A stretch of DNA of 64,000 bases from Tetmemena sp. SeJ-2015. Its lineage: Eukaryota; Ciliophora; Spirotrichea; Sporadotrichida; Oxytrichidae. The stretch lies in contig JAJKFJ010021476.1 in assembly GCA_027382625.1 (NCBI GenBank), positions 21,605 to 85,604 on the forward strand, in the 5' to 3' direction. A program made the translations under genes and the position numbers. The notes under the pieces were generated by a model. That model was given only the letters and a program-made list of their open reading frames with translations. It was not told the origin of the DNA and ran no database searches. Positions within the stretch are counted from its first letter, which is position 1; each line of letters starts with the position of its first letter. Below are positions 1,908 through 64,000 of the stretch, one piece after another.

Positions 1908-1958
1908 GAAGACAACGTCTTTGAGGCACAGTTTAAACTAAAATTGGTTTATTAGTGA

Positions 1959-2167
1959 AGCTTAAGGCTTTTCAACTCAGCCTATTTTCAATAATAACTT
2001 AACAAGTATTAATCAAGCTAAAATTAATTATTCTTAAACTATTTCCTACTCAAAGATATGCATTTATACTCTTCTCTGTATAGTCCTTTAAATAAAGTAA
2101 ATAAATCAAAATGTTTATTTTACGACCATTATTAGTAAGTGATATAACGAATTCAGTTATTTCCTAT
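1959..2167. other. Spacer between convergent genes
   Basis: AT-rich sequence between the 3' ends of two convergent genes. No reading frame, repeat or RNA gene recognised. Confidence 0.5.
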
Positions 2168-28302: not shown

Positions 28303-30127
28303 GTTCAGCCAGACCCTGAGTTTCGGAATGATGCTGCAGTCAGCTCTCAGCACTCAGTAAAAATACAAGACTAACCTGCCCTAGGATTTCCCCTATATTT
28401 CTAACAAACTTAGAGTAAGTGCACATAATTTGGTGTAAGTCTATTCTTGTAGACGTTTAAAGAACTAACGGACTCCTTGATCAACCAAGTGGAGTTTATG
28501 TGCGGAAACCACTTACAGCAACTCCAGTTTATGCTTTCACAACAGCAGTTGCTTCAACTACAGCAGAATATCAATTCTTAGCATGCCGACCTCAGCACCA
28601 TTTTCCCAAATTAAATCTATTATTTAAAGTTGATCATAATTCAAATGTGAGACCGCATACAAGCACCACAGATTACCAAATGAATGACACTAAGAATATA
28701 TTAAATAAATGTTGCCTCATTATATTATATTAGAATGCAAGTGAGTAATGTGAGGAGAATATTACTTTCCAAAACGACAAGGATGAGAAAACTCTTTCAC
28801 TCATAGCTGCAGAGGAATAAATATCTCGTCTCTCAAAACTAATAGCAGAAAAGGAAAACATAATAAATAATATACTCTCGAATTAAATAAGGATAGTGTT
28901 ATTTCCACGATGCAAAAGCAAATGCAAAAGAGTATAGGACTTGAGAATTTGCAATATAGATATGATTTGCAATAAAAGAGAATTCAGGATTTGCAAGCTC
29001 TGATTAGAGAAAAAGATGCCATGATCGAACAGCTTAAAATAGGAATTTATTTTTAGCTTACTTAGAAGAGTATAGATATGATACCTTTGAGATCACTCTC
29101 AACTCCCAGACCTAATTTCAACAGTCAAGAAGCTAAAAGCAGTAGAGATGCCTCTTAGAATTAACAGTCCTTTTCATTTTAACTAATTCCTATTTAATTT
29201 AAATACTTATTCACCAAACTTATTTGAGAAGTCTCAAGAGCAAATAAAGCAAAGGCCTCAAACTCACAGAAGCATCTAGGATAAGCATTGTAGAAACCAA
29301 ATCAAGAATGAAATCACGACTACATAATCAAGATACATAGAGAGCCCTATTCCTTAGAGTTACAATAAGAGCAAAAATATGCTTTTAGTTAGATTTCTCT
29401 ATAGTTTTTTATTTTTAGAAACTTAAATTGTATGCCTTTGCAAATGATTAAGGCAATCTAATAATTTAATTGCGAAAGTTATTTTTTTATTTGCATTTTT
29501 ACAATCGAAGATGAAAGATAGCAAGTGAGCATAGCTTAAAATATGTCACCAAGGATTCTTAAATTGGAAAAATTAACTGTTGAATCTTTAAAACATGCAT
29601 AAAAAGAAGACTCTTTACTATAATGCGCACTTTAAGCAGAAACAATTTCACAAGTAATTGAAAGAAAAGCAAGCACTTCAAAACAACATGTGAGAATATA
29701 AAATCAAGATTAAGCACTTATCGATCAAAGATTTAAGACTCAATATTAAATTGCAGCTGATTATTTCAGTAGATGATCCTAAATTAAAAGATGAATTCAT
29801 TTATAAGCAAAGTACGAGATTGTTCCTTAAATTTAATTGATGGTCATAATCAATTATCTATAAAGTAGTACACTGCATTTCACCAAGAATAAAGAAAAAA
29901 TTAGAAATTTAAAGAACAAAAATTTTATTATAACCAAAATTATTGTCTTATTTGTACTTAATTTGGAGACCAGTGACTTTGCCAGGCTATTGAAATTTAT
30001 GATTATTGAGCGACCTCTGCCTTAAATTCACTCTCATAAATATAGTCAATTCTTTGAGCTGAAGCAGGAAGCCCCTTCAACAAATTATACTGCAAGCACT
30101 AAATCTAGTTAAGAGGCCTATAGCTGA
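28303..30127 (+). CDS. Coiled-coil protein
   Basis: ATG 28303 (MFSQTLSFGMMLQSALSTQQ) is followed by blocks at 28303-28420, 28460-28690 (Gln-rich: HLQQLQFMLSQQQLLQLQQN), 28755-29215 (EKTLSLIAAEEQISRLSKL and KRIQDLQALIREKDAMIEQL), 29225-29400, 29505-29770, 29775-29840 and 29960-30127. The frame stops at TGA 30125-30127 (...TKSSQEAYS). TGA-bearing AT-rich gaps between blocks look like IESs whose pointers I did not all fix, so the last two blocks are assigned with less certainty. Residues 60-250 are predicted coiled coil by eye. No enzymatic motif. Confidence 0.65.
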
Positions 30128-30223
30128 TTTCAAAACTTATAAATTTATATTTTAAGTACCTATTGTAAGCCTTGCTATCCCATTAACAAATTTAAATTAA
30201 ATATATTTTATATAGAAAGACTC

Positions 30224-33050
30224 TGTTGATGTCTGCAAAAACTGAGTGATGGATCTTGTAGCCCTCTCAAAATATATTAGAAGATTAAGAACAAGAGGTC
30301 TATCCTTTCTCTTAACGTTGCATATGAGGTTGTAGTTGTAAGTGAGCTCATACTTTGGCTGATCATGCAAATATCTTCTACTTCTTGGAACAGTTCCTTA
30401 GATTGGAGTGACCTTCAAAAAAGTCACCATAGTCTGGTCTATTATCATAATCCTAATTCCAGTTTCAAAGAGTACGTTTGGCTCTATGACTCTGCCTACG
30501 ATCATGAAGTGCTGAACGATCTTCTCTGAGGGAATCTTAAATATCCAGTATGACTCATGCTCTCTATACAAATCATCTTTATGATTTATCAAATATATTT
30601 CACGTTATCGCAAACAAGAGAAGTCTTGAATAGATATTTCATTATGAGCTTCTTCCTTTCTCTTTCTCTCTTCATCTTCTCTTTGCTTCATAATCATTCG
30701 AGGAAAATCTGAAATTATTTAAGTCTCACACAGGAGGTCAATCTTATCTAATGCATAAAAGTTTAACCTTGATCTGCTTGGAAGTTCCAGCCTTGATGTG
30801 ACCAACTGAGGGGTAGAACTTGAATTCGTCCTTGTCACCTTGATTCCATCTGAACTTCACTGACTTATCGCCATTATTACAATCTGGAAAGTAGCTGACT
30901 TCGCCTTCAATTATAAATCTCGGAAAGCTCATCCTCCATGTTTTCAGGAAGTCCCTCAAACTAAATATTATATTCCTTCAGAAGTATTCAGTAAATTGCA
31001 TTTGTGCTTATAGTATTATGAATCAACCTTTCTTTTGCACCTTCAGTGTTCTTTGCTGCTATGAGGGTTCCAAACCAGAAAAGTCTTTCCTGAATGGAGA
31101 AAATGCTTGATGCTTTCCATAATTTAAGTGAGTGTTTTGAGTTGGGTCAAGAGAGGGAACTACAGTTTACTCTTCAAAGATCTGATCCAAATCCTCGCAT
31201 TAAAAATTGACTCTGTTTAATCTGCTTAATCTGCGGGATCACGATTTAAATTATTCAAGAGTTGACTCATAGAACACAGCTCCTTTAGCCTTGAAGTAAT
31301 TATTGCCTTTTAACCTTGGAGGAATCTAGCAAAATTATGGAGTGATTGAATACTGACTCACTTCTATCAATCCTCCTTCTGAGTTTAAAAAACAGCAAAT
31401 TTTTAAGATCTCTCCACTTGACTTCTTCTTTCTTCTCTTCAAGTCAAATACATAAAATCTAGGAGTTAGTTTACTTTCCTCCATTTCTCTTTGTCTCTCT
31501 TCTTTGATCTTCTTCTTTTGCTCCTCATCTTTTTCCCAATTGAAATGGCAAACTTGAACTCAAACTGGCCTTCGTTTCTGATTTCAAAACTTCTTGCGAT
31601 CTACTCTCCGTATTGCATAGGTCCAAAGTTGATATTCTTCAGAGGGGTTATTGAGTACTTGCTGAAGACTGCATTCACATTAAACTTTCTAACTTCTATA
31701 AGAATGTATTCTATCAATGCCTAAATATATGTAAGTTAGTGGCTTGAGGAGGTCTAGTTTTCTTTTAAGCCCCTATTTTAAATAATTTTTTGGACTCCTT
31801 TGGTTGCAGAATCCACATTAATTTTAATCTTCCTATCCCTCAACATGCTGAACTTTCTCAGTTTATAAATACTTGTTCATATTGCAGGCAGGGAGTTCTC
31901 ATCTTAGTTCATCTTAACTTAAAAATAAAGTTACATAAATTAACATATCTACCTCAGAATGATCTCTGCAAAGAATTCTTATTTTCCTTATTCTCCTCTT
32001 TGGTGTTATTTAATTTAACTTGTAATTATAATTTATCTATTATAAGTTTAAAGAAAATATTAATATAATAATTTTGATATGGTGTATTCCTTTGGCTTTG
32101 GCTCATCCTTGTATTCTTCGCCGTTAGCCTCAGCAGCTTCTCTTTTCTTGCGTTCTTCCTCTTCCTTTTGCTGCTGAATAAGGAGCTCCTCTTGACGCTT
32201 GCGCTCCTCTTCTTCCTTTTTGAGTCTCTCTACCTCTTCTTTAGAGGGAGGTTTTACTTTAGCTGCTGCTTAATTTCAAATAGACGCAACATAAATTCAG
32301 ATTCTAAGCAGTCAAAGATAGCACCAGCGTTGCAATCTTCAAGATCTTTAAATAATCATAATCTTCCTCATCTCTTTCTCTCAGATAGTTAGCAGCTTTC
32401 TCACAAAAATACTGATTATCAGAGCAATAAAATTTAGTCCCATTTTATAAAATTTAAATCTTGAGGTTTGAATGTAACGCAGCAAGTAATCTCAGTGTTA
32501 GGCCATATCTTTCCTTACAGAGGCTCAATTGAGAAGATCTCATCTTAGAAGAGCATTCATATATAAGCTTTTCTAATTGACTGATACTTTCTTGCCAGGG
32601 TGGCGATCGCCCTATAAAAGATGGAGGGTTATAATAACATCCACCATGCATAGGAGTCATCACTGTCGAGTGACTCAGCCATGGACTCTTCTAGGTTAGA
32701 CTCTTCGAGTATCATGCGCTCCTCTGCCTCTTCCTGGCTGAGTTGGAGGTTGAGTCGTGACTTTTTCTCGTTCTCCTCTCTTTCGGTTGCAAACGCTCTC
32801 CAAGAGAACTCCACAGGCACGGATGACTTGTTCACAATTTGGTAGTACTGATGAGAATAGAGAGTGATGGAGGTAGGCTCCATGTGGATACATTATTCTC
32901 AGATAGACGTTATCGTTGTGGCTTTCACCGAAGATTGGGACTAAGAGTTAATTGAATGTGTAAAGTTTGTCATATTGGAGTACGACTTCATCTTTATAAG
33001 GTCTGCTTTCTTGAATATGGTATATTTGCTTATCAGATTAACCAACCTCC
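30224..33050 (-). CDS. HYDIN: Scrambled HYDIN, inverted MDS cluster A
   Basis: Carries two separate parts of HYDIN. At 33000-32630, EEVVLQYDKLYTFNQLL and METSITLY-like/VEFSWRAFATEREENEKK match the N-terminal third (the family motif FQWKAFATQEEE). At 30960-30745 FYPSVGHIKAGTSKQIKV, and at 30564-30290 small pieces (HESYWIFKIPSEKIV; LKVTPIQGTVP; YNLICNVKRKDRPLVLN), match the last third. The last three alternate with MDSs on the + strand at 38.2-38.7 kb through exact pointers: GAGAGCATGAG, AAACTGGAA, CCAGACT, AACTGTTCC, CAGCCAAA. A T6 run (A6 at 30417-30422 on +) shifts the frame by one and looks like an indel or read error. HYDIN is a giant ASH/MSP-domain protein of the ciliary central pair. Confidence 0.85.
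30387..30437 (-). other. HYDIN: HYDIN MDS, 51 bp, inverted
   Basis: Pointers CCAGACT (30431-30437; partner 38638-38644) and AACTGTTCC (30387-30395; partner 38662-38670). It supplies LKVTPIQGTVP before PQSQIPIEILFQP. The frame works only if the T6 run inside it is read as five. Confidence 0.85.
30457..30564 (-). other. HYDIN: HYDIN MDS, 108 bp, inverted
   Basis: Enters with pointer GAGAGCATGAG (30554-30564; partner 38481-38491 on +) and leaves with AAACTGGAA (30457-30465; partner 38513-38521 on +). Joining gives VGEHESYWIFKIPSEKIV and then FETGKIKFGPLLLEGKN without a break. On the + strand only a 21 bp AT-rich IES separates the two partners. Confidence 0.92.
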
Positions 33051-33619
33051 AAAATTCCTTCCTGCTTGTTGATTTTGAACCTTAAATTTTATTATTAGAA
33101 CTTTAATGTGCCACTTGGTGGTCTTCTCACCGATTATTTTTTATTTTCGGCGATATGCTTAACAGGAACATATCATGATGATTTAATCCAGAGTATCAGA
33201 TTAAATTTTATGCCTACTGCTCTGATTGGCACGATGAATTTCTTCCTCTTCAAATATATTATGAGGCCGGAGGCTGTTGTGGAGGCTATATTATTTATCT
33301 TTTTATTTTTAACTTAGTTAAAAAGTAAATTAAAATCTTAATTAGAAGTAACCTCCTGCTGGAAAAGCCTAAAATTAATACATTAAGAGGAGAAGTAGCA
33401 CTATCATTAGTTTGTGGAATATTTTTGTCTGAATTGTGATGATTAGATTGTGAAAAAGCCACCCAATCGTAGTGAGAGAACCCCTATCTCACTTTTCTCT
33501 ATCTGGATAAATTTCTCTCTCAACAGTAACAGATGGATTTATTATTAAAGTACAAAAAGCTCTACATCAAATTCTTCTCAAAGAATTCGTAATCGCTATT
33601 TATATAATAAAATAGTTGG
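33051..33619. other. AT-rich DNA between opposite-strand HYDIN clusters
   Basis: Separates the - cluster A from the + cluster B. It has short open stretches but nothing I can assign to HYDIN. Confidence 0.4.
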
Positions 33620-36600
33620 ATCTTACAGACCTTTCAATCTCAACATTAACGCTGTCTGTGAATTCCCCACCATCAACTCGAACTTCAGGAATGTATTCAT
33701 GGCTTAAAAGAAAGTAAGTTATTATCCCAAGCCCCTGATAGTTACTTAAGCAAATGCTTTGTGGTCTCAGAAAGCGTATTCGACTTCGGACCTCTCCTTA
33801 TTGGTAAAGATATAATAATTCTCTTCCTCTCTCTATAAATAGTAAAAGAGAAACACTGACGAGGTTTTGAAAAGAGTGAACTCAAGTGTGCTCTAAATCT
33901 CAAATAATGGAAAGTACGATGTTCAAGCCACTTTCTGTTTGAGAAGTTCCCTTCCAGTCGAGGAAGGTGGCACTGGAGAGAAGAGCCCCTTCATCCTCGA
34001 GCCAGACCAAATGGATCTGAAGATTGATGAGACTAAGAACCTAACTGTCTATGCTTTCCCTGACCAAGCTAAGCTCTACAAAGACGAGATCATCTGCTTG
34101 ATAAAGGATAATCCCAATCCAGTAATCTTCAGCATTCAATGCTTGGGTGCAAAGCCAGTAGTAGAGGTAGACCAAGATGTAGTTGAGTTTGATAGACTCT
34201 TACTAGAGAAGAAGATGACTAAGACTCTGACTCTCAAGAATGTCACCTCAATCCCTGTGTAATGGAAGCTCTCAGGAGTTGCTGAGCTGCCTGAAGAGTT
34301 CCAAGTCTCCAAGACTAATGGAATGATCAAGCCCTGCAAAGAAGAAGTGGTTGAGATCACATTCACAGCCAAAGCTGAGAAGAAGTTCCTTCAGAAGATC
34401 ATCCTAGAGGTCGAAGATACTGATTCAATAGTCTAGTAAGTGTGTGTGATGTAAAGTTAGTTGTATCAAGCAGGAAAACAAAGCCATAGAAATCAAGGCA
34501 GAGGCGTTCAAGATATCCCTGGACATTAAGTTAGCCACGACTAAATCCTAGACTATGAAGCAGTGAGAGTAGGAGAGCCAAAGGAGAACAAGTTGTTCAT
34601 GAAGAACATCGGCATGTACCCAGTCAAATACAACTTCACCATGAAGAAGAAGCAGACAAGAGAGATATTCACAATTGATCCCATGGAAGGTGAACTGTAG
34701 CCTAATGAGGAGAAGAATGTAGTCATCAAGTTCATGTCTCAAAAGGAGATCAAGCTTCTTTAAAAATAGAAGAATACCTCAGACATAGATAAGAGAGTAT
34801 AAGAAATAAGTTCGCCATTTGTGACTTCAAAGATGAGGATAAGAAGCATGAACCAGCGAAGGCACCCCAAAGGGTAAAGATGCTAAGGGCAAGGATGCTC
34901 CACCAGAAGGAGGATAAAAATTAATATTTTCATCAATAGTGCAGCATTGATCATTTCTTAAACCTTCAAGGCTAAATGCAAAAGAAAGGTTCAAGATTAT
35001 GAATCCAAAAAAATAGATTGCACAGTTAAATTTGCAGTCAAGCCTAGATCATAAAGCAAGAGTGAAGGCTTTGCATTCGATGTCAAGCCTGATGTGCTCT
35101 AAATTGAGCCTCATAAGCACAAATACTAACTATCTTCTATCCTATTTAAATACTATATAAATAATTATTCCAAGCAAATATCTTTAGATTTATAGAAAAT
35201 GAAATGATATTTCATTTTAAATTTTTTTTTAAATTAAATAAATCCTACTAGTATGATGACCTATGGAGGCATATTTGAAGCAACTGTGGATTATTTCCCT
35301 TCCCCAACTCTCTAAGTTGAGAAGCCCAGAGAAATGGAAGCTGATGGAACTCCTCTTCTAAAGTTCAGAAAGACTAGAATCGGTAGAGAATCAGGCAATT
35401 TATTATTATCTATAGTCTTGAAGAATGAAGGAAATATTTCTCATTTGTTCTACTGCTAAATTATTATCAAAATATTTTATAGAATTTTATTAAAAGTAAA
35501 GTAAAGTAAAATTTTAAATTTAATTAAAATATTTCTTAAAATGAAGACTTATCGTTTTCTGAGATTAAGACGTTATCAGATGATTATTTCCCAGATTCTG
35601 ATATAGATTTTAGAAATTGAAGATGACTTCTCCAGAATCCTCATAAAAGTAACTGATGAATTTAATTTGTGGATGAATGATTAGAAAATTAATAAGAGTA
35701 CAACTTAAATAAGTATCAATAATAGCATTGAGATACTCATTCTCCTTGTAGGTTAATTAAAATTAGATTTTACAATTTTCTGATATGATTTCTAGTATTT
35801 AATTAAAATATGAAATATTTAAGGTAGTAAATCCATGGAGGAAGACCTCTGGTTGAAATTATCATTCTACCAGTCTGAAGAAATTAATATCTCTTCCCTT
35901 TATAAATAGAGACAAGAGTAGATCTTCCAAGGAAGAATCCAGAGCAAGAATCAGACTCAGTGCTGATAGTTGGATTGATGACCCATTCTCTATCCTCTGT
36001 ATTTTAGATGGGAACAGTCTGCTTCTGAATCTTTCTCACTTGAGTTTAGAAATTGAGGGTCTGAGTTTGTGAAAGATCCTACTCAATGCATTTACCCATC
36101 ATACTCAAGAATAGAGGCTCACCTCCCTTTATCAAAATATACGGGTCAGCTAGTGTGGGGTGGAATGTTACTTCCAAGTCCAGATTGGAGTTAGGATTCA
36201 CATATCCACTCTTCTGGGTTTATGGTGAAGTACCTTATTAAATTTTGATACTTGCTATCCCATTTGAAGTAGGCCTTGATTAAAATTTTAAATAGAAATT
36301 ATATTAAATTATTGACGTCTCCGAAGTTAGAGAGCTGTAGCAACTTTGTCAATCTACTTCCTTTGACAACAATTATATTTTTTAGAACTTCATCCATGAG
36401 TTTGAGTTCTATTCCATGAGATACTCCAGTTTATGGTTTCTTAAAAAATTGAGTTATCCTTGATACTGAGCATGATGTCCATGTTGAAGTTTGTTACAAA
36501 TATTTTAGCATTTTACAGATTAAGCATAAATAATTCTGCAACATTACTTGCTCTGAGGAAAGACTCCCACTAAATATGACTGGACAGGGAAAAGGACCCT

Positions 36601-39600
36601 AAGCTTAACTGTCAATAACAGAAATGGACATTGGAGACATATTCGTCAACTATCAGAATGAGTTTGACAGATGTAATAAGGGTTTTAAGTTTGAATTTTC
36701 TGAAACGTTCAGGTTTGCCCTTGAGGGAAGCTTTTTAATTTTACTTTGGCAGTGCCTATAAAGGCGGAATGCCTAGTTATTTATTAAATTATTCCTTGAA
36801 TACGAGACTTGCTTCTTTAGTAATGGTTTAATGAGATCGAAGTTGTGTGCAATGCTGAAGAATAAGTAAGGTATAACTTCGGGATAACTTTGCAAAGACA
36901 ATCTGAACTTGGTTGAGTTTGTAAGTATCAGTTAGAAATGCTTCAAGGTGAGGTCTGCTTCCCTATTATATTCTATCTCAAAGAGAATATCTGAATGACA
37001 CCTCCAAAAAGAAGTATCTCACTTTAACCAACATTTCTGAAATGCCTGTGAACTATGATTACTAAATGATGATGATGATCTTGATGCCTGGACAAACTGA
37101 GACTAGCATAATATATTCACTTACTATGCAGGCCATGGACTTACCTACAACGGTATAGCTGTCTGCAGTGTGGATGGAGAAAAAAACTCATGATTTCTTT
37201 AGACTATGAAGTTCCTATAGTCGGAGAGTCGAGCTTTGTACAACACAAGCTCTCTGTAACTGAATTAGATTACGGAGAAATCCCATACAATGAGTCTTCC
37301 TCGAAAGAATATGATAAGCTAAATTTTGAAAGTGCCATTCAAGTTCAATGTCAATCTATCTACTGTTTCAAACACAAACTAAGTTATTCTTTATTACAAC
37401 ATCGATGAGATGTTCCTTGTTGAATGTTAATTGTGATTTTTTATTTTGTAAGATAAATTTGTAATAAAAATCCTATGGATCAACCAATCGAAGTATACTC
37501 CCTTGATTTCGATAGGCAGTATCTTGAAGAATAGTAAATAGTAATTAATGAAAATAGTCACTATATTTAAATCCTGAAACTGCAAAATTGGGTCCAGTTA
37601 TATATAGGAGCTAAGTACAGAGATTGGGATGACACCAATCATAGATAAGGAATAACTAGAAGAAAAGGTAGAGGAGATAGTAATCGATATGAGCGAAGAT
37701 CCATCTATGGAATTGATCGAGACCATTCCAGAAATCGAATACTCTAAGGTGGACGGAACTGACAAGAATGTCCCTCTCAAGACTTCTAAATCCATTTGTT
37801 AGTGAAATATGATTGCCAAGTTAACCATATCGACTTCAAGCCGACTCTCTTCAAAATTTATAAGCTTCAAGATCATACAAGTTCACAATCAAGAACACCT
37901 CTCTTATCACTTTGAACTATAACTTCAAGATCGTCAATAGTGAGACATATATTCAATTCTTAGATGCTGGTCCATACAGTATAATTCCAAAGAAGGGAGC
38001 AATTTCAGCTGGCTGTGATGATAATTTCATTGTCAAGTTTTCACCAGTAGAAATTGAATTAATCATAACTATTCGTTCTCCAGAATCCTCTCTGGTAACA
38101 TTGAGAACTTATCTCCAGATCAGAAACCTCTCATTATTGAATGCAATGGAGTAGCTTATTAAATTTAATGTTCACTAACTAACCAATTATCCACTTCGAG
38201 TTACCACCTAACACCTACAAGGAAAGAAAGGAGAAGGACATGATTCCTGTGGACTCTAAGTACAAGATCATAGAGTTCGAATCACTTGGAACTAATATCA
38301 AGAACACTAAGAGATTCATGGCTGTTAACCCTACGAGTCAAGGATATGAATTCGAATGGGAAGAAGTAGCTGAAGATAACAAGAAGCTGAAGCCTATGTT
38401 TAGATGCGCCACTCCAAAAGGATCTATATTGAGTGGAAAGAAATACGAAATGATCTTTGAATATACCCCTGATAATGTTGGAGAGCATGAGATAAATATT
38501 AAGAATTAATTTAAACTGGAAAAATCAAGTTTGGACCTCTTCTTTTGGAGGGAAAGAACAGGGAAGTTGTGAATATCATCAATCAAGAACTTATACCCTT
38601 CAGTTTCAATTTCACCAAGGATAGTGTAAGAGGAAGCCCAGACTTGTTTACATTATAAAGTAACTGTTCCTCCTCAGTCTTAGATTCCTATTGAGATCCT
38701 ATTCCAGCCAAATTTCTTCAATCTACATATCATTTATGAACAGAGTCTAGGTGCAGTCTGAGCCTTACAAGTTCGATTTTGGAGACTTCTTTATCAATGA
38801 GAAAAAGAACAAGGTCGTTTATCTTCAAAGCTCAATTCATGTGAAGTATTTTTGGAAGAGATAAATAAACAAGTATATAACTATCACCCCTGAAACAGGA
38901 ACAGTTATGAAGGGATCTGAAGTCTCATTTGAAATCACCTATCTTCCAATCGCCGAACATCAACTGAAGAACTATAAGCTCTCACTGAACATTGTCAGTG
39001 GCCCTAAATATGACTTCTTACTTAACGGAAATGCCAGAAAGCCTTCTAAATACACTATAGACTTCGGCCATGCTTTGTCATGAGATCCTGAAAATTTTAA
39101 ATTTTCGAAAAGAAGCCCTATCTTGATAGAAGAATAAACTTATCGAGACTTTGGAGTAGTTTCAGTTGGAGGTGATATAAATTGTTCAAGAAATGTCAAG
39201 TCACATTCACTCAATTAGAGTATTCTAGCTTTTCGTTAGATATAACCCTAAAAACAGAATGCCAAACTTCAACATAGATATTTGAAGTTCTTGCCTTCGG
39301 TAGTGTTGTCAAAATAGAACTCTTGATATTATCATTAAATCTACTCTTGTGGTTCCAGCAAAGCAAACTGCTCAATTTGAGATATCTTACATCCCTATTA
39401 GGTTTTTAGAATGCAGCAGACTCAGTATGATGCGCATAACCAGATTTTAATAAAAGTTCTTCCCACTTCCCAATGGAACTGCTCTTCTTTACAAGCTCAA
39501 TGGTATCGCAACTGAACCTAATATTCTATAAGCCTCCTTCAAGAAACTGTAGTCGCCAAGAAGTCTAAGTTCATAGTTGTGCCAGTTAAGAATTGGTTGA

Positions 39601-40800
39601 AGCAAGATTAAAGATTCAAGGTAACTTGGAACATTGAGGGTGATGTTGATCCTACTGTAATTCATGAGTAAATATGCTTTAGATTTAGATTGGTGAATCA
39701 AGCAAAGACTTTAAGCTCAACTTCTAAAAATATGTATTGGAACCTACAAATTCTCTATCACATTCAAAAATGAAGAGCTCTGGCGAATACTTACTTTAAG
39801 AAAATTTCTAACCATTTAGAACCTGATCTAATAGAGAAAATTGAACTCGCAAGCGCAATTAGAGAGTCAATTAGCAAAGTAATCACCATTGAAAACCCAA
39901 CTGATAACGAAGTCACTATTCTCAAGAGCTAGTTCATTTATCAAAATGAGTATATAGATGTCACACCTGACACTCTTAAGATACCTCCCAAATCTGAAAG
40001 AGGCTTTGAAATCATCAAATTTAATATTCTTAACTAGATTGAGCAAGAGATTGATTTCGTTCTGAAGAACCCAGCACTTGGAGATTACAAGTACAAGCTT
40101 TTGTTGAAGAGTAAAGCTCAAAGATCTTTGCTCAAGTATTTATAAGACCTTGTTCAAGCATTCAAGTTAACTAATTTAAAGCCATCTAACTACACAGTCA
40201 AGGTTGAAAAACTAGACTAACCAGGAGGATAGAGCGAATTTAAGAATAAATTGGTCGCTCAAGTATCAGCTCCCGCAGCTGACTCTAGTAGTTATTATTT
40301 AGCAAATGTCAGATACGAACCATTCACTATCGGTGACAGCAGAGCTATTCTCAAGCTTAATAGCCCAGAAGGTATGGAATACACTTGCTTGCTATATGGA
40401 AAGTCCAATTATATTTGTTATTCCACAGGTATGTTACTATCAATTTTTATAATGTTATAGGGACCTATTAAATGCGTACCAGGAGCCAAGCCTATTCAAA
40501 TCGACTTCAAGAATTCTTATCATATTTTATTTTTAATCCTCTCAACGAGAAATGCGAGTTCCAAATTACCTTCGACAACCCTAACTTCTCGCTTGCCTCT
40601 AAGCTTCCCGGACCTATCGATGTAAGAATCCTATCCGATTTATCTAACATATTTTTTAGCCTGGCAAAATATCAAATATCCTTATTAAGTACGATGCTAA
40701 GCCAGATCTTCCTCAGACTGGTAGAAATAAAATTCTCTAGATTTTATATCCCTATATTTTAATTAATGCAATTTGCCTCTTAGAATTCCTGGAACTCATT
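33620..40800 (+). CDS. HYDIN: Scrambled HYDIN, MDS cluster B (middle to C-terminus)
   Basis: Begins with a stretch typical of the region after the kinase-like domain (SVFDFGPLLIGKD at about 33775-33810; FDRLLLEKKMTKTLTLKNVT; EIKAEAFKISLDIK). It then passes through IIPKKGAISAGCDDNFIVKF (37.9 kb), FESLGTNIKNTKRFMAVNPT (38.28 kb), FEITYLPIAEHQLKNYKL (38.9 kb), FPLPNGTALLYKLNGIA (39.46 kb) and VPVKNWLKQDQRFKVTWNIE (39.6 kb). The C-terminal region reads CKFQITFDNPNF-like and LPGPID at about 40.55-40.63 kb. These are ASH/MSP-type Ig folds repeated along the protein. Order within the cluster follows the family, but segments are missing and are found in clusters A and C, so the cluster holds alternate MDSs. 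Most gaps are AT-rich IESs. Confidence 0.85.
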
Positions 40801-40979: not shown

Positions 40980-42490
40980 ATAAGATTTCCCTGCCTGCTG
41001 AAGGTGGAGATCTTGAATAGCCAGTGGACCAAATGTCCCCAGAGAGTCAAATACAATACGGCAAGAGAATCATAAAACGCTCTTTAATAACACATATTAG
41101 GCCAGACCCAGATAAAGAACCACTCCCACCTCCAGTCATTCATTAGATTGTGAAAATTAATATTAATTTGTTCACTTAACTAATTATTGGTAAAGACCCG
41201 GAAAAGAGAAACATAACTTAATTTTTATATTAGATAATGAATTTTGCATTTATATTTATACGATCAAGCTTCGAACATCGAAGAATACCTCATAGATGGC
41301 AATTAAGAATTGATCAGTGTCACCTTCAAGGCATTTTAAAATAGTTAATATAGAATGAAGGATCTATTGCGCTACTGCTAGAATTAATATTTCATTTAAG
41401 ACACTATTACACCCAAGACCTATCAACAAAATACAAAAGACAATCTTTTTTATTAAAAAAATATACTGTTATTAAGCCGACTCTCATGTACGCTTCAATC
41501 TAAATAATTTCCTTGGTTTAATGTCAATAGTGATACTGGAATCTTAGATGCATTTATATAGAAATTCTTATTTTCTTTCTCTTGTTCTTAATGTGAAAGG
41601 AGAGGGATTATCAAAAGCTTTAAATTTGTAACAGAGTCTAGTCTGATTTTATCTTCAAAACAACGGAGAGTTCAACTTTGACTTCGTTTGGAAGTTTATT
41701 AAAGAAAGCCTGGAATGAAGCTGAACTTCAATACCTTTGACTTCGCTTTATTTGCAAATATGAGATAGCCTATGCCTAAGAAGACAGTTCATTAAAATAA
41801 GATCATAGGTTGAAAAAAATAACTCTAAATTTGTGAGTGCTGGAGATAATCAACTTGGACAATAGCGCCATCGCAGTTGAAACAAATTTCGAAATTCAAT
41901 CAACTATATTACTAACTCATTCTTTGATTTTCTATCTTGATGTTTAGCTTGCCCCTGGGTAGGTATTAGTGCCCTCAACTAAAGAGAACCCAATAAAGTT
42001 AGAGATCCCAATAATCTTCACTCCAAGAGAAATCAAGAAGTACCAAGAGACCATTAGCTTCGAATTCAATAACCTCTACTCAATTGACGTCACAATCACA
42101 GGAGAGGGTATTCCTATGCTTCTAGAGCTCGTAGATCCTATACATATAATTGAGATCATCATAGTAGACTTTGAGATGTAATATTTGTTCAAAGGTGATG
42201 TTACTAGAACTATCCCCTTAGTTAATAAGAGCAAGAAACCAGTCACCTTCCAACTCTTGCCTAGTTCAGATGATCAGTTCAAGAAATGCACACTTATAAA
42301 TTCACTCCAGATAAAGAGCTCACTCTCAAGCCAAGAGAGACTTGATATGCAATTAAGTTAGATATAACAATTAGATCAAGGATAACGAGTAGAAGTAGCT
42401 TCTTCATCTATCTGGAGTAAAGAAATATGGATGACAATCTTATTTCTTCGATGCAACAAAGTCAAGTGTGAAATCAAGGGAGGTGAGCAA
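40980..42490 (+). CDS. HYDIN: Scrambled HYDIN, MDS cluster C
   Basis: Downstream of the C-terminal MDSs but holding earlier parts of the protein. 41.03-41.16 kb: DPDKEPLPPPVIHQIVKI, like the PPIPPPALF linker after the kinase-like domain. 41184-41213: a micro-MDS that fits at 33.8 kb. 41.28-41.40 kb: ELISVTFKAFQNSQYRMKD. 41.66-41.70 kb: NGEFNFDFVWK. 41.96-42.18 kb: NPIKLEIPIIFTPREIKKYQ, which resembles the C-terminal third motif VPITFYPRE.NYQE. These pieces fill gaps left in cluster B. Pointers other than those of the micro-MDS were not worked out. Confidence 0.75.
41184..41213 (+). other. HYDIN: 30 bp micro-MDS of HYDIN
   Basis: Starts with TTATTGGTAAAGA (also at 33798-33810) and ends with AAAAGAGAAACA (also at 33844-33855); only CCCGG lies between the pointers. 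Inserted in place of the IES at 33811-33843 it gives FGPLLIGKDPEKRNTDEV and continues into LKRVNSSVLQISNNGKYDV with no frame break. Confidence 0.92.
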
Positions 42491-43129
42491 TATAAAGAAA
42501 CCATTAATCTACTCTAACTCATTATGCTCATAATGCGCACAGAGGCAGCTTGTTCTTCCACTAATAATTTCTATAATTGGATCCTACTACTTTCATCAGA
42601 GGTGCAAATATGCTTTTACTATTTTTGACTAACTTATTTTAACTTACTTTACAAAGTTCAGGTGCAAGCCACAGAACCTGATCAATTAATAAAAAATAAT
42701 AATCTTTGAATTATACGTTTTAAGAGAGGAGATTCAAATAAAAAGGGAGCCAATAAAATAAATGTTTAGAAGGTGAAAATTTGAAATTTAATATATTTGA
42801 AAAGAGATTATGGGGGTGTGAATAGATATTTAACTAGGAACTATTGTTACTTAAATTAACTTATATAATTCAAAGAAAGAGTGCGAGATCTTTTAGACTA
42901 ATCTATGAAGAAAGTAAGTGCGCGCCAACGCATTCACCATCAATTTAATATAAGCCTATTTTAATAAAAAATAATAAATGTTATGATTATCTTCTCTTCA
43001 TGCCTGTCTCCTCTATTTTTCTTCGTCATTCACTCCTTTAAACTTTGAACTAAATGTGCTTACACTTACTTAAAATTAAAAAAACTTATTTAGAATATAT
43101 ATATTTATTTTGGATAAATACTTTTGTAG
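42491..43129. other. AT-rich DNA between HYDIN clusters
   Basis: Short open pieces only; nothing I can place in HYDIN with confidence. Confidence 0.4.
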
Positions 43130-45870
43130 GTTCCTAGTTAGCTGATTAAAGATTAAGAATCAGGAAAAAGCATTATTGAGTAGTTTCCTAAGCCTAAGAT
43201 TATCTAAAAATATTAAATCTTATACTGATTCACAAGTCCATGTCGATAGTAAAAAATATCAAAGTCTAACAGATAAAAGAACAAATTTTGAAGTTGAGGT
43301 AAGTCCAGAGAGAGCGCCTTGCCATATTACAATAGTGTATTTAAGAATAATCCTTCCCTTTTTCTTAATTTTTCAAATTATTAACTTTCCTATTACATTA
43401 GAAATAAGGGTTTTAAATTTACCTTAAACAAAAATATCTTATCTAGGTATCATTTGACAGTTAAGATAATACCCCCAGACTCAAAACTGTTTCAAGTTTT
43501 GCCATGCAAAAAATCTCAAGGGTTAGCCTCCACTTCAAGATTATAATCTGGCCTCTAATCATCAATCAAAAAGCCAAGTGACGTTGACATCATGTCCAGC
43601 CGTGTCGCCCCCGGCATGGAAATTTCGTACGTTATAAAATTCTCTCCTGAAGCAAAGATTGACTACTCTTACTTAAAACTTTACTTTAATTTAAGTTAAT
43701 GATGGTTGTGACTGAAAGAGAAAAATTCATCACTGAAAGCAGTAGGCTGCAGGGCTATGTTAGATTTCCCTGATACTATATAATAAGAAGCATAGAATAA
43801 TATCGCCGAAAAGCCAGTCATGATAAGAAACATCGGTGTAGAAAATTTAAACAAACTTTAGAAAAGCTGTGGACGAAGACTTAATGCTCTTCTAAGATTT
43901 TTATTAAAAATTGTTTAAAATATCTTGTCTTATTATTTAATTTAATTTTGAAGCTCAAATCACAATCGAGTTTATCCCATGCTTCCCACAGCAGTATGAT
44001 ATGGTGCTTGTCGTTGATTTAGAAGTATCATTTAATCTCTAGGATATGTTGGCAGTGATAAATTTAGTGAATGCCTAGTTCCCAAGGTGCGTGTTGTACC
44101 TTCAGACTTCCTTGAAATAATTTTGCTTCTTGAGACATCCTAAAACCAAGAAGATTGAGATTATCAATGACGACAGCTTAAAAGCAAAGTACTAACTTAT
44201 TCTGCAACTTTATTTGTAGTTCCTTAAGATGATCAATCAAAAAGAATACATAATATGGCAAATTGGAGTCTATTCTGCTGATTAAGAGTCAGGAATCATC
44301 AACCCCTTTTTATAAACGTTATAAGCTGAGATTCTAAGCAACATTAGGATCCCACTTTACATTAAGGTGATATTTAAGATAGACTTTATCATATTCCTTT
44401 TATGGTGACCTATTCTTGCTAATTCTATTGGGCCAATTGTCTCATTTTAAAAGTCTGAGCTCGATTACAACAATGTTGACGTACTCAAGGACTATATTGA
44501 GAAGATAGTGATAAAGAATGAGTCAAAGATCCCAGCAGAGTACACTTAATATACATACCAAGAATAAGGAAAGCATTTGGAAAGTTATCCAAAGGCATTT
44601 TAAGAAATTTATTGCTCAAGCCTGATGATGAAAAAGAGATCGAATTAATTTCAAATATCTTAAAAAGGAGACACTCTTCACATCATAGTAAACAATGGAG
44701 TAGATTTAGAGGTGGCTTTGAGAGCTAAGGGTGTTGGATCTACTTTTTATATTTTGCAAAGACAGCAATATATTTTGTTCTTGGTTGAGTTTGGTACTGA
44801 ATATACCCACAACAACATCACTAAGGAGTTCTTCTTTAAGTGTAAGAGGAAGAAAGCAAATGAAGATTCAGTGGCAGAGAACTACTAAGCTAGACAGAAA
44901 GCAACCTAAAAAGCAAGATGGAAACAAAAGCGCTGAAATAGGAAATAGAATGGCACTAATGGAGCCAATGATGCCTCAGTAGTTTCATAACTTTTTACTT
45001 ATTGGGCTTGCAATGTTATAGTAGGAGGTGATAGAAAGCTTGAACATGGACTAGATTATTTTTCCTATTTCTAAGACCTTGGATATCTCAAACTCATTTT
45101 TTTATTATGGCATCCCAGACAACATCAGAAATATATAATTAGCCTTGTTGAATGTGCTCATTTCCCAGAAGAAAAATTACCATTTGCATTATTTTCAATA
45201 GTTATTTTTCTGACTCAAGCTGGAATAAGTATTGAGGCTATAAATTGCAACAGCAGCCACAGTAGCAAAATTTAATACTCTCATGAATTATATTCAATTG
45301 AATATCACTGTGGAATAGGAGCAGTCAAAACCCACACAAAATTAATAAAAAACTTAATTTCTCAGTTGAATTAAAGTTACATTGTATATTTGTAAAATTG
45401 AGTATTGAGTGGACTTTCCAAAGTAATTGTGTCTTGAGTTTCTGACATTTACAGAGACTTCTACACCCTTGGGAGAGTCAGCTGATGATTTTTAGATGGC
45501 TTCTTGAGGAAGTGAGTGAACTTGAATAAATTAAGGTCTTATCCAAGTGCGCATTTGAAGGCTAGAGATCTTTGATTATTAAGGTTTTAGGTTCCAGTCT
45601 TGTAAGTCAAGAAGTTATTATATTCACCAGCCACGTCAAGCATATCAAAAATTTATTAAAATTAATGAGGCCCTCAGAGTCAGGTTCAGTTTATAGACTT
45701 TGATTATCTAAAGCTGCATTCTTCTTTGTCATTGTCTTAGGGATGAATTATTATTTATCTAGATATAGTTGCATCGAATGTCTGGGTCAGCTATCCAATC
45801 ATAGATATTTTATAATCTAACTTCAATGGGGACAGTCTCTCCATTCCTTATAAGTCTACTATGGCCTAGT
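43130..45870 (+). CDS. HYDIN: Scrambled HYDIN, MDS cluster D (N-terminal part)
   Basis: Holds the N-terminal region although it lies downstream of the C-terminal MDSs on the same strand. 43.58-43.67 kb reads SSRVAPGMEISYVIKFSPEA, then MVVTEREKFI (43.70 kb), CRAMLDFPDTI (43.76 kb) and KPVMIRNIGVEN (43.81 kb). These match in order the family motifs KVAPG..FRIRFTPEE, VTEREKFI, RALLDFPDH and LLVRNIGN. 44.1-44.35 kb (KKIEIINDDSLKAKYQLIL) and 44.65-44.74 kb (DTLHIIVNNGVDLEVALRAK) are later N-terminal-third segments. One small join is TTA near 43.68-43.70 kb. Sequence before 43.58 kb (QLIKDQESGKSIIEQFPKPK) may be the very N-terminus; no start codon fixed. Confidence 0.82.
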
Positions 45871-45959
45871 CAGGATCTACGTAATGTAAAAATTGAAATT
45901 CAAACTAATTAATCAATAGATAATTGGTCTCTCAGCTACTCCATTTAACTTAAGATTAC

Positions 45960-47880
45960 CTTTTCTTCTTATCCCTTTCCGGCAGGCTTGGCAGGTGGCT
46001 TTGCTCCACCCTTAGCACCTTTCTATGCGGCGAGAGCAGCAGCCTCAGCTTCTTCCTTTCTTGAGTTTTAAGTTCATAATCTTCCTATATTCCGAAGGTC
46101 TGACCATTCTCATAGTCTTCATGGTGTCATATCATAATCCACTAGCCATGTTATATTACTTAGCTCCAGTCTCTGGATCTGCCTTCTATTCGATACAGAA
46201 AGTCTCAACACATATCTGGTCATAAAACATTATTTCATGTATCAATCTTGTCGTACTTCACTGTCTTTGGAGATTTGAAAACTACCTTGATCTTAAATTT
46301 AGAGCAAAAATTTAAACTTCGCCTTGTTTACAATGCAATCTCCTAGTTAAAGCTCATCATCATATATTGCTCATTTTAATAACCTTCTCCGATAATCATG
46401 ACTTTGTGCTGCTCGAAAGGATTATGTAGAGTGTTGAAAGTGAGGAGGAACTTTTCAACTGAGGAAGACTTGGGAGAGAATCGAATATCAAATCCTTGAT
46501 AGGTCTTAAAAAGTAATTTAAGAGTAATAGTGTGATTCAGATTACCCATGAAGTTGAAGCAATCAGAAAATAACATAATCCAAGACTATAGACAGCACTG
46601 ATTCTTTATTAGTCCAGATTATTATATAAATGTGCAAGGGATCTTGTTTGGATAAAGAAATAAATAGCTCATCAATGCTGCACTACCTGGAGGAATCAAT
46701 TAATTCAAAATATAATGATAAGTCAATTCTTTAATTTAAAGATCTAAAATTTTTGGCTTCATCACAGATTTCTCTAATGGTAGGAGCAATTGTGAGATCA
46801 ATAAATTATGATGCTGCTGCTTTGGGGTCAGCTTTTTATAAAAATGTTTGAAGTAGTGATAGCATCACAAATAAATTGTAAATGGGGATAAAAATATTAG
46901 TAATTTAAATTTATGAAGTCCCTCAAATGTGACATTTTCTTAATAACCTTCTCTAAAATGTTTCTAAGAGTTGGTAAGGTTCCCTCTCCTCTGAGTTCAA
47001 AGATTAATTTGCCAGTCTTACTTTAGGGATCTCCGTTGTCCACAGTTTAATTTTGAAGTTATTAGATAGAAGCCGACTGTCACATATTTGTGCTTCTAGA
47101 ACTCTGATTTATTTAACTTGATGTGATCACAGTCTGAGTGTTATACCTTCAATATTTTAAGGTATTTAAATCCTCAGTGTTGATCCCTGGGATAGATGAT
47201 TCAGCATTCAACTCAAATGGTATTCCATCTGCTTAATATGAGTGTTCAAGATTAGCTACGTCGATAGCAAGAGTTATTTTTAAATTGGGAATCTATCCAA
47301 TAGCGGGAGTGATTTAATCTCCTTCTTAATTATCAAAATGCTGGTTCAGGTTTCTTCTTAGGGTCCTTGACTTGATAAATATTTTCAAGTCCCTTGATTC
47401 TTTCCTCCATCACTTATATCTTTCATTCACATTAACGTTGATTGGTATTGAGTTATGAGTCTCTTGAGATTTTCCTTCAAGAATATTCAGAACTATGTCT
47501 GAGAAGTATATTCTATCACATCTGGTTAATGAATGTTATAATTTTTCCTGCTTGATGTTGAAACCCTCAGTATCTTCATATATGTTTTGAATTATTTAAG
47601 TATCTTATTATACGTATTTTAAGTTCCAACGATTTCGAATTACATGACCTGATCGAATGATCCAATGTTCTTTGAGAAACACTATGCTATAATCCATCTA
47701 GTCACTGAATTGACCATTGGGGGAAGTTAATCTTTTAAATACAAGACTTTCTCAGTTGGAGTCCAGATAGATCTTACTTTTATTTCTTGGTCTGGCCAAA
47801 TAGGATCAGGTACTAACTTTTTGGCTTCTTATTAAATGAGATCAACCAAGATTCTCTTACCTTTTAGTGCAGACATGCAC
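45960..47880 (-). CDS. HYDIN: Scrambled HYDIN, MDS cluster E1
   Basis: Minus-strand pieces in HYDIN style. FDIRFSPKSSSVEKFLLTFN and HKVMIIGEGY (46.50-46.38 kb) is a complete end of an ASH-type fold. A low-complexity Ala/Lys/Gly/Pro stretch (KGAKGGAKPPAKPAGKG, 46.03-45.97 kb) resembles the charged linkers next to the kinase-like domain. Other blocks in 47.8-46.6 kb are interrupted by AT-rich gaps and were not placed. Confidence 0.65.
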
Positions 47881-47894
47881 ATCATTTTATTTAA

Positions 47895-48760
47895 TCTGCT
47901 GCTTAATTTTCAGCTTTCACTAATTGAGGTTACTTCTAATCTTATGCAGCTTCAATATGTGCTTAAGATTCATGCAGAGCTTCATTTGGATCCTTGAAAT
48001 GCTACAGTAGAACAACTTGGATGTTCGAATTACGTCTTTTAAATAAGCATCACAAATTGCTTCCAGAGCAAACTTGAGATTAGGCCAGTATTGGCATTCT
48101 AAGCAATAAAGGCAATCTTCATCTCTAATCCTCTCTGCGATCATCTCAACTATTAAATACTCCTTAGTGAGATACTTGTAGTCAGCTGGATTCACATCTG
48201 GCTCTTCGTCCTTTACTTTCTTTCCCTTCTGCTTTTTCTTCCTTTCGGCCTCTTCAGCCAACTTTCTTTGGCACTCCTCATCTCTTTCATAATATTCGAT
48301 TACCGATAAAGTTAAATATAGCAGCTTTCTCAGCTATTGAGGAACCTCTTTTAATGCATTAGTCATATAAGTTTTCCAACTTAATGATTCCTCTTTGCTG
48401 TTCTTAAGCTAGGAAGTTTGCAATAGATGTCTTGCCAGACTTCTCAGGACCTATTAACACTAAGAACAGTTTATCTTTTTCCTTAACCTGAGCAGCATAG
48501 TGAACTTCCTATCCTTCAGCTTCTTCCTCAGCCAAATGAGATTCAATCTCTGCCTTCTATTCTTGTGTCTTTGCTTTCTTTTCAGCGTGGCCTTCTGCCA
48601 ATGGAAGCTATTCTTGCTCTTTCTATTGCTCTTCCTTATTCAAGTCAATATTAGAGATTTCATCGCAAGCCTTCAACTTCTTCTTGAGTTCTTCTACTCT
48701 TCTCTTCTTTTCATCTTACTTTCTGATGCTTGACCAGAATTGAGTTCCACTTATCTCTTA
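47895..48760 (-). CDS. HYDIN: Scrambled HYDIN, nucleotide-kinase-like domain
   Basis: A near-continuous - strand frame contains a Walker A loop (LVLIGPEKSGKTSIANFLAQ, about 48470-48410) after a Gln/Glu/Lys-rich coiled segment. After an IES (about 48305-48265) it continues into a charged linker (EEAERKKKQKGKKVKDEEP) and KEYLIVEMIAERIRDEDCLYC. The latter matches the family stretch LLVQILAERIQLSDC of the adenylate-kinase-like insert of HYDIN. In other organisms this domain lies in the middle of the protein. Confidence 0.85.
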
Positions 48761-48769
48761 AATTAGTAT

Positions 48770-51700
48770 AAGAGGCAAATACATAGGCTCTATAGTGGGC
48801 TGCTAGGCGGCTGGCTACTGCTGTTGAGATTGCTAAACTTGAACTTGGAATTAATCAAGTCGCTTCAAAATCTCCTCTTCTTCAAGAAAGATAGGAGTAA
48901 TAGATAATGGATTATCTTTGCACTTGAAAGTCAGAACATATAAATGATTGATTAGAATCTCTCTCCTTCTTTTGCTTAGTGATTAATATTTGAGTAGTAA
49001 GACCAGTCGCAAGGAACCTTAAATTTTTTTCTTGTAGCATATACGACGTTAAAGAGGATGAACGAATATTGAAGAGAACCGAATCCAGCAGAGCTTTTCA
49101 AAGCTGATTGATTAAAATTATTCCACCTTAGAAATTCAAGGTGGTTTGACTCAGTAATTAATCCTCATTTAGTTTAATTTAGATGATGATTATATTTCAC
49201 CAGCTGCTACCTTTCCTGTCATTGCAGATTTTTTTTGACTTCATAGTCTGGACCTCCATCCACACATATTGCATCAAGATACCACTAACTGGTAGAATAT
49301 CAAAGACTTCATTGATTGGAAGCATCTTGGATTTCTTTCCTTTCTTTTTCTTAGACTGTTTCTCCTCTTCTTGCTTAAGAGCGTTAAGAGTAGTGATTTC
49401 CTCTTCTAAGAAACTCCATTCATAGTTCATAAGAGTCATTTACTTATCAATCTATCATTCAGGATGCATCCGAAGTCGATATTGGGAGGGAGAATTTGTA
49501 AATTAGGGAAGCAAATTCAATAGTTGATTTGAAGCATGACTGTGTCTTTTTAAGGGTGTCCAATGTGTGAAATGTTTAATTTTCCAGAGATGTTATCTGA
49601 AAGACGGTCTTGCTTCATGCCTGGATCAAACTTGATCATCACTTGCTCAGTCCTATTAGGAGCTAAGGTTAATAGAGAGTATCTTAATTTGTGAATTAAC
49701 TATGCAAAGATACTTGAAGTAAAGCTTTGCCTCAGAGAAAATAACTTAGTGAGAACTCACTGCTCTGAATTGAATCATGATTCCCATCTTTGCATATATT
49801 TTTTCCTCTTTCTCTTGGTTGGCGCCACTTGAAACTATTGATCAATAAATTCACAATTGCTCGGACTTGTTAACTGAGACTAAATATAAGTAGAACGATA
49901 TTGTAAAAAAAATAACAAAGCTAAAGAATTAAAATTTTCATTTATAAAATTTGAATATGCTTTAAAAAAATAAAAAAAAATTTCTCCCAATATAATATAT
50001 AATTAGAATATGATAACCCTCGACCTTAATTAATTATAACCCTGAGAATCTCAGTCTTCAAAGTTATATTGACTACCTAGGAAGATTTGGGGTTGAAGAT
50101 GAATATCAAGATTATATTATAGCAAAAATATCCTAGCCGACTCCTTCTAATTATATAAAGTAGTCTCTATTTTTTAACATCAGAGGTGTTTGTGAGATGG
50201 ACTGTTTTGTAAACTGGGAATTTATAAGAGACTTTTCCGAAGTCTATAATTTCCTCAGAGAACTTAAAAGTTGGTGCAACAACATGACCCTTAAATGTTA
50301 GAGTCAGCATCTCTTTAATTCCTACAGATCCTGATGTCATTTTATATCACTCTTAAAAGTGACTCTAATGAGGTCTCGAGATTTTTCTCATTATAAATAA
50401 ACAAATATGAAAATAATTCACTTCCACGAAATATATTTAAAGCAAAAGATGGAGGGTTAAATTTGAATTTCGTATAATTTGAATCTTACTTTTGCTAGGC
50501 TCTTTCTTGCTTTTTATTTAGCTCGTCTTCATCATAGGAGTCTGCATTATTTTTATAATTGGACTACTTCACTCATGTGGATATGTGTCTTTGACAGATA
50601 GACATTGGCATATCTCATGTTTTCATACTTAATTTTGAACCCGTTTGGAACTTTATAAACTAATATATTGACTCTTACCAGTCAGATTTATAAAAGCCTA
50701 AGATTATCTAGTTTTTAAACATCGGTGACAGTTCCATCTATACTGATTTCAATAAAGTATTATTCTATGTCGACGAGCCTTTGTTTTAGCCAGTACCCCA
50801 CGTGATACAATTTACCAACTACGAGCCATTACAGATAAAATTAATATCAATGGAATGAAGAGAGAGCGCCTGTGGGGTGGAAATCTATTCGCCAATACCT
50901 TCCTATAATAAAAGTAGAGTCATTAGAAATAAGGATAAGGTCGCTCGATCAGTTAAGAAATAATGTATTTCTAACATTACATAACTACTCTTACGATCTA
51001 ATGGTTGTGACTGATAAATAAATTTCATATATGCATATAAAACTTAGGATTTATTTCTATAATCATAGGATTTTTCATTTCGATAACCTAAATAGCACTT
51101 GTATTATATGGAAGAACTGGACCCAATAATTAATTTAAAGAGTTTCAGGATTAAAATCTACTTGATAATTCACTCCTTGACCTTTCACGTTGAGAACGAA
51201 TTGCTTTGGATTATCTTTTCTTAAATTTAAGTCAGCTTTTGAATAAATGGCTTGTCAGAGTTTGGTGTGAACATTACATCCACAGTTTACTTTTGACCAG
51301 GCAGGAGCGTTCCAGCCTGTGGGACAACCTAGAATCTCTAAAGTATTTTGCTACTTCAAAATGTGCTGTTGCAATATCAGGTTTGTAGTAGTAAGACATA
51401 AATAATTTCCCTTTTACAAGAAACCTCTTTCTGGTTTTCAAATCTGACTTTGATTGTCTTTCTTGTATTGACACACACTTTTCCAAAGTCCAGATTATCA
51501 TTAGACATGGCGAGCTCTGGGATTGTTAGATTGGCAACGAATTCAATATTGTAAGAGGGACCATATTTCACATCGATAGGCACTAAGTTCTTAATTTTAC
51601 CAAACTTGGCATTCTTTCTTGTAGCTTAAATTCATTATAAAGAGGACTGAAGAATTCGGCATAACCTTTTGCACCTTATCTGGCTCAATACTTATGAGAA

Positions 51701-63803: not shown

Positions 63804-64000
63804 TCATCCTAAGGATGCATCACCGTAGCCCAAGCGTATAGTCTGCTCCCACTTCCTCATGCTACTCCACATCTGTCTGTTCCGTCTCATATCGCGCTCA
63901 TGATCTCCCGACTCTTTTCACCAGTGCTGCCTATAAGCTCAACTCAGATGCATCTTACTTGTTATGGATCTGCTGACTCTAGAGCTGCTTCTTCACATAT
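63804..64000 (-). CDS. 3' end of an unidentified gene (5' part outside window)
   Basis: On the - strand from 64000: LQSQQIHNKQDASELSLQAA and then, after a one-frame change near 63905, DHERDMRRNRQMWSSMRKWE and RLGYGDASLG, ending at TGA 63806-63804. Polar and Gln-rich, using TAG/TAA as Gln. Too short to identify. Confidence 0.5.

Follow-up and report, generated by a model that had tools for sequence, protein, structure and literature searches.

The HYDIN locus and its tracks

HYDIN, the hydrocephalus-inducing protein, is a protein of the cilium. In the window, by which we mean the whole 64 kb stretch of DNA that was analysed, the HYDIN gene seems to consist of roughly 200-240 segments, which lie on both strands between 30.05 and 54.04 kb and fall into nine largely collinear tracks. 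The tracks are listed below with the number of confident, non-overlapping segments in each and the range of HYDIN profile columns over which these are found.

30054-33238, - strand: track A, 30 segments, columns 156-4588
33450-35633, + strand: track G, 15 segments, columns 2302-3557
35821-36488, - strand: track H, 6 segments, columns 4136-4781 (the C-terminal end of the alignment)
36543-40793 (36543-40719 plus 40776-40793), + strand: track B, 42 segments, columns 440-4764
41054-42679, + strand: track F, 17 segments, columns 2254-4487
43136-45230, + strand: track C, 22 segments, columns 17-1556
45447-50651, - strand: track E, 46 segments, columns 206-4660
50700-51009, + strand: track I, 3 segments, columns 37-150
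51070-54038, - strand: track D, 27 segments, columns 175-1759

When these 208 segments are followed along the protein, the track changes at 192 of the 207 steps and the strand at 115. Just beyond the locus, a frame of 316 aa on the - strand (54324-55274) carries a YHYH domain (PF14240, E 3.6e-9); of ten long frames from other parts of the window that were compared with Pfam, it was the only one to match. Window position 64000 coincides with the end of the contig (base 85,604).

An earlier sequence-only reading had described a path through five joins in this region. These joins are numbered in the following chain, in which the segments are given in protein order and each with the pointers at its two ends.

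38076-38156, + strand: first segment of the chain
45945-45919, - strand: short MDS of track E, preceding 38182; AATGGAGTAGCT (45945-45934) to ACCAATTATC (45928-45919)
38182-38491, + strand: MDS of track B; ACCAATTATC (38182-38191) to GAGAGCATGAG (38481-38491, join 1)
30564-30457, - strand: inverted MDS of track A; GAGAGCATGAG (30564-30554, join 1) to AAACTGGAA (30465-30457, join 2)
38513-38644, + strand: MDS of track B; AAACTGGAA (38513-38521, join 2) to CCAGACT (38638-38644, join 3)
30437-30387, - strand: inverted MDS of track A, holding a frame slip at a run of T; CCAGACT (30437-30431, join 3) to AACTGTTCC (30395-30387, join 4)
38662-38712, + strand: MDS of track B; AACTGTTCC (38662-38670, join 4) to CAGCCAAA (38705-38712, join 5)
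30361-30284, - strand: inverted MDS of track A; CAGCCAAA (30361-30354, join 5) to CTCTTGTTCTTAAT (30297-30284)
41579-41606, + strand: short MDS of a third track, F, absent from the earlier path; CTCTTGTTCTTAAT (41579-41592) to GAGAGGG (41600-41606)
30268-30218, - strand: inverted MDS of track A; GAGAGGG (30268-30262) to AACAGAGTCT (30227-30218), continuing at + 38739
38739-38829, + strand: MDS of track B; AACAGAGTCT (38739-38748) to TTTATCTTCAAA (38818-38829)

The protein encoded by the chain from 38076 to 38829 is continuous HYDIN, with the slip at the T-run as the sole exception. The earlier path rightly ran on the + strand to 38491 and on the - strand from 30361, but the former is a single segment that begins at 38182 and the latter ends at 30284. 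Between the segments of the five joins lie four short spacers.

38492-38512: IES of 21 nt between two + strand MDSs
38645-38661: IES of 17 nt between two + strand MDSs
30438-30456: IES of 19 nt between two - strand MDSs
30362-30386: IES of 25 nt between two - strand MDSs (length from the pointer coordinates)

In the 93 triples of an IES and its MDSs that were compared over the gene, the IESs are A+T-rich, with a G+C content of 0.27 versus 0.42 in the MDSs, and their median length is 17 nt without pointers (one interval is overlong from the split at the T-run).

Pointers, protein and reading frame at the five joins

Five exact pointers had been claimed, and the two copies proved identical and in place at all five joins. 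The six segments can be joined with a single copy of each pointer kept, which works at every join; microhomology is likewise present at each of them, and the spacers there measure 17-25 nt. Both GAGAGCATGAG and AAACTGGAA have a single occurrence per strand across the whole 64 kb window; CCAGACT occurs 10 times in the 64 kb, both strands combined, and is unremarkable by itself. In 2,394 mismatched end/start pairs, handled identically to the real joins, chance repeats of at least 11, 9, 8 and 7 nt were found at rates of 0.04%, 0.13%, 0.63% and 2.4%, respectively, and the product of the chance rates over the five pointers is approximately 1e-13, given independence. The five pointers exceed chance, and the order is also set by homology alone. 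When a spliced alignment was run blind to pointers, it arrived at these six segments in the order of the earlier path, except that the T-run divided the fourth segment in two. The segments give this order only once they are permuted and inverted.

Since alternating segments lie on opposite strands, 8 kb apart, the assignment of the five joins to an odd/even scrambled MDS pattern combined with inversion is supported. A strictly two-way reading is valid for these joins, which use tracks A and B, but the gene as a whole draws on more than two clusters. These joins make up a single stretch in a much larger weave of nine tracks.

The protein joined from the segments is 194 aa long and ends where the frame slips within the fourth segment. 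It matched HYDIN in the PDB (7n6g, 2.3e-42; 7sqc, 5.8e-42; 9ijj, 2e-31), and this match is gapless through joins 1 and 2 and stops shortly before join 3; in Pfam, no family was matched by these 194 aa. Of 29 candidates retrieved with the 117-aa + strand piece, 22 were HYDIN proteins (2,066-4,916 aa). Compared with these 22 relatives, frame 0 of the joined sequence spans joins 1-3, and frame 1 takes over beyond the T-run and spans joins 4 and 5, with a gapless match of 49 aa that is 63% identical to relative P0002. With a 167-aa query, 155 candidates yielded 141 proteins (120 listed), and the best were 82-83% identical over the full query without gaps. Both searches were pooled (142 proteins, for the 167-aa search the matches listed), and proteins with at least 8 aa on either side of a join were taken to span it. 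The match was gapless at join 1 in 111 of 112 spanning proteins, at join 2 in all 89 and at join 3, where the query runs through the slip, in 48 of 53.

TAA (51) and TAG (29) codons are found at columns that favor Q, in an alignment which itself assumed that code. The Euplotes genetic code is disfavored by TAA and TAG at positions where the relatives prefer Q.

Several HYDIN relatives lie on contigs of approximately 14-15 kb, the size expected of a HYDIN nanochromosome, and these contigs would be somatic. Three of the relatives (P0001, P0004 and P0005) have long HYDIN reading frames on contigs of approximately 14 kb, which argues against the idea that the pieces are exons joined by cis- or trans-splicing of RNA with no rearrangement of the DNA. 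Splicing would likewise give a continuous mRNA from scattered pieces, but pieces on opposite strands cannot be joined by cis-splicing, the strand switches 115 times among the 208 segments, and repeats at the borders are the hallmark of pointers. We therefore give this explanation almost no weight compared with rearrangement of the DNA itself.

The slip in the fourth segment is of one base and lies at a run of six T (30422-30417). The earlier claim of a HYDIN frame extended by every join is correct for the joins themselves and fails here, inside a segment. HYDIN relatives read through the position of the T-run without a slip. The published Tetmemena assembly, according to the text of PMC9797194, was made from corrected PacBio and Illumina contigs that were polished and merged, and because it is such a hybrid, a residual indel is the likeliest cause. 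The slip is probably an assembly indel, or else, with lower probability, a true germline lesion. The whole reconstruction contains 12 breaks of 1-2 nt, including this one; the others are at 44410, 52745, 51615, 48046, 34539, 30878, 39068, 42295, 36212, 39534 and 39774. A similar break at 52951 in an earlier reconstruction was gone once a small extra segment, + 45009-45035, was recognised, so that some of the breaks may be due to segments that were overlooked, and others to indels in the assembly.

The slip and the 11 further breaks, as well as the presence of several duplicate-like tracks, are what could be expected if the segments were decayed copies of HYDIN and the working gene were located elsewhere in the germline genome. 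This is very improbable, as the tracks are complementary and carry exact pointers at their borders, which decay would not create. In addition, when the 194-aa protein was searched against the assembly, which is possibly incomplete, all three matches among the best candidates scored (two on the + strand, one on the - strand) were on the contig of the window.

Reconstruction of the whole gene

For the whole gene, a profile of 4,785 columns was built from 14 of the 22 relatives, and in the spliced alignment, jumps were permitted to any position on either strand. In the pointer-blind alignment, 122 of 179 joins were tested, namely those with well-scoring neighbors and at least 60 bases apart, and 34 of these had an exact repeat of at least 9 nt near the border, compared with 0.13% of the 2,394 mismatched pairs. 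Most joins of this run are without a long repeat, in part because the shortest segments were skipped.

In the alignment that rewarded pointers, 235 profile columns were damped. It gave 253 segments with a score of 12,329 and repeats of at least 9 nt at 154 of 252 joins, whereas the same procedure gave scores of 1,050 for the reversed sequence and 1,060 for window positions 1-28500, with such repeats at 78 of 358 and 74 of 337 joins, respectively. With the initial cost settings, the score was 12,613 versus 1,616 and 1,563 for the controls, and repeats of at least 9 nt were found at 134 of 249 joins versus 33 of 358 and 43 of 364. The first reconstructions were set aside, as they contained spurious low-complexity detours.

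Merging of breaks of up to 3 nt left 241 segments, of which 213 passed the confidence rule and 28 were dropped; the confident set excludes the column ranges 2053-2253, 2330-2385 and 2879-2908. Five of the 213 overlap another segment, are probably spurious and were also dropped, resulting in the 208 segments. Their cores have a median of 36 nt and a total of 12,772 nt. The median pointer in the confident set is 10 nt, but since pointer length enters the confidence rule, counts of pointers in this set are inflated; the pointer-blind alignment and the test of neighbor order are free of this bias. Low-complexity parts of the protein were left without a settled segment path. On the - strand, the gene path jumped to and fro in the stretches 48788-49406, 31458-31535 and 32090-32260, which are partly rich in AAG/GAG.

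Within the tracks, whose borders were set after the result was known, genome and protein order agreed with absolute values of Kendall's tau from 0.935 to 1.0. In the neighbor-order test, which is independent of the borders, 218 of 245 same-strand neighbor pairs followed the order of the protein when all 253 segments were used; the controls gave 179 of 356 and 173 of 332. Two exceptions to the collinearity are found in track B, both with pointers of 9-13 nt: + 37576-37593 precedes 37472-37525 in the protein, and + 40776-40793 is out of order.

The order of the segments could also be an artefact of assembly, arising from chimeric long reads or misjoined contigs, and the published Tetmemena assembly is, in the text of PMC9797194, a merged Illumina/PacBio hybrid. 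Misjoins would not, however, create microhomologies that are in phase and coincide with the edges of conserved protein pieces, nor would they hold nine tracks in protein order, as judged from the 218 of 245 neighbor pairs, and an artefact of this kind is extremely unlikely. We conclude with high confidence that the window is germline (micronuclear) DNA of a hypotrich ciliate, Tetmemena sp., with a massively scrambled HYDIN gene, and that in the five joins tracks A (-) and B (+) of the nine-track locus alternate as an inverted odd/even run.

Predicted somatic assembly, possible origin and published counterparts

During development of the somatic nucleus, the two copies of each pointer would be brought together and one copy retained, the inverted (-) segments would be flipped and the short A+T-rich spacers discarded, and the end product would be one HYDIN gene on a somatic chromosome. 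In hypotrichs, long template RNAs guide pointer recombination in the developing somatic nucleus, as stated in the text of PMC9797194. The anatomy of the locus is compatible with this, given its pointers, its short A+T-rich spacers and its - strand pieces in need of inversion. By analogy with the published biology of Oxytricha and Tetmemena, template RNA from the parental somatic nucleus would be the guide here, and the five joins would be those used in somatic DNA.

The text of Feng et al. 2022 (PMC9797194) names as the most scrambled gene of Tetmemena a hydrocephalus-inducing-like gene on the somatic (MAC) chromosome LASU02015934.1, of 14.7 kb and with 204 scrambled pointers. Very probably, the HYDIN locus of the window is this gene. 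As far as that text describes LASU02015934.1, the two are alike in protein family and in extreme scrambling (here the 208 segments switch track 192 times), and the 12.8 kb of segment cores here agree approximately, by description, with the 14.7 kb of the chromosome there. The passages of that text on this gene give the count only and neither a track layout nor these five joins. In a text search of the literature, a hydrocephalus-type gene of Tetmemena was found in PMC9797194 alone, and a scrambled HYDIN of Oxytricha was found in none.

Two pointers mentioned in the text of PMC9797194 were searched for in the assembly. The Tetmemena pointer CAAAGTAGCTCAATC, printed there, had three matches, including a pair that lies 10 kb apart on a single contig, and its reversed control had none. 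The 18-bp Oxytricha pointer TATATCTATACTAAACTT, which according to that text joins two genes in Oxytricha and not in Tetmemena, occurred once.

Inverted odd/even loci of Oxytricha, described as return words in the text of Braun et al. 2018 (PMC5940158), share with the present locus the arrangement of odd segments on one strand and even segments inverted elsewhere, as well as identical pointers at each join. Unlike those loci, as the text presents them, the two-way run here is short and interrupted by further tracks, and nine tracks serve one gene. Comparable complexity in a very large gene is found in Contig17454.0 of Oxytricha, a dynein heavy chain with 195 scrambled junctions in the text of PMC9797194, although the gene and the species are different.

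The locus may have arisen from repeated duplications, local and in part inverted, after which the copies decayed in a complementary way. The model of duplication and decay predicts that an IES and the MDS replacing it are alike in length and sequence. Their lengths correlated weakly (Spearman 0.33, p = 0.001, 93 triples; on codon cores 0.29, p = 0.004, 95 triples), and for Oxytricha and Tetmemena, too, the reported correlation is a weak one. Sequence likeness, examined in the 50 of 93 triples that were long enough, was not significant (mean 5.86 versus 5.71 ± 0.18; 24% of shuffles as high), and decay from duplicates is therefore left undemonstrated. Together, the length and sequence results fit an old locus and are no proof of duplication and decay. 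That the nine tracks are remnants of serial, partly inverted duplicates of the locus, several of which alternate in supplying the next piece, is a tentative reading, to which we give clearly less than an even chance.

Raw germline sequence and protein relatives alone suffice to confirm part of a programmed DNA rearrangement that ranks among the most complex on record, and true pointers can be spotted by eye. The extreme scrambling of the gene has very probably been published already, and the finding supplies further detail; with its track layout, the locus lends itself to tests of how scrambling grows. If the tracks are indeed remnants of duplicates, the gene would be woven many ways instead of following an odd/even pattern of two clusters, and would offer a fossil record in which duplication and decay can be tested track by track.
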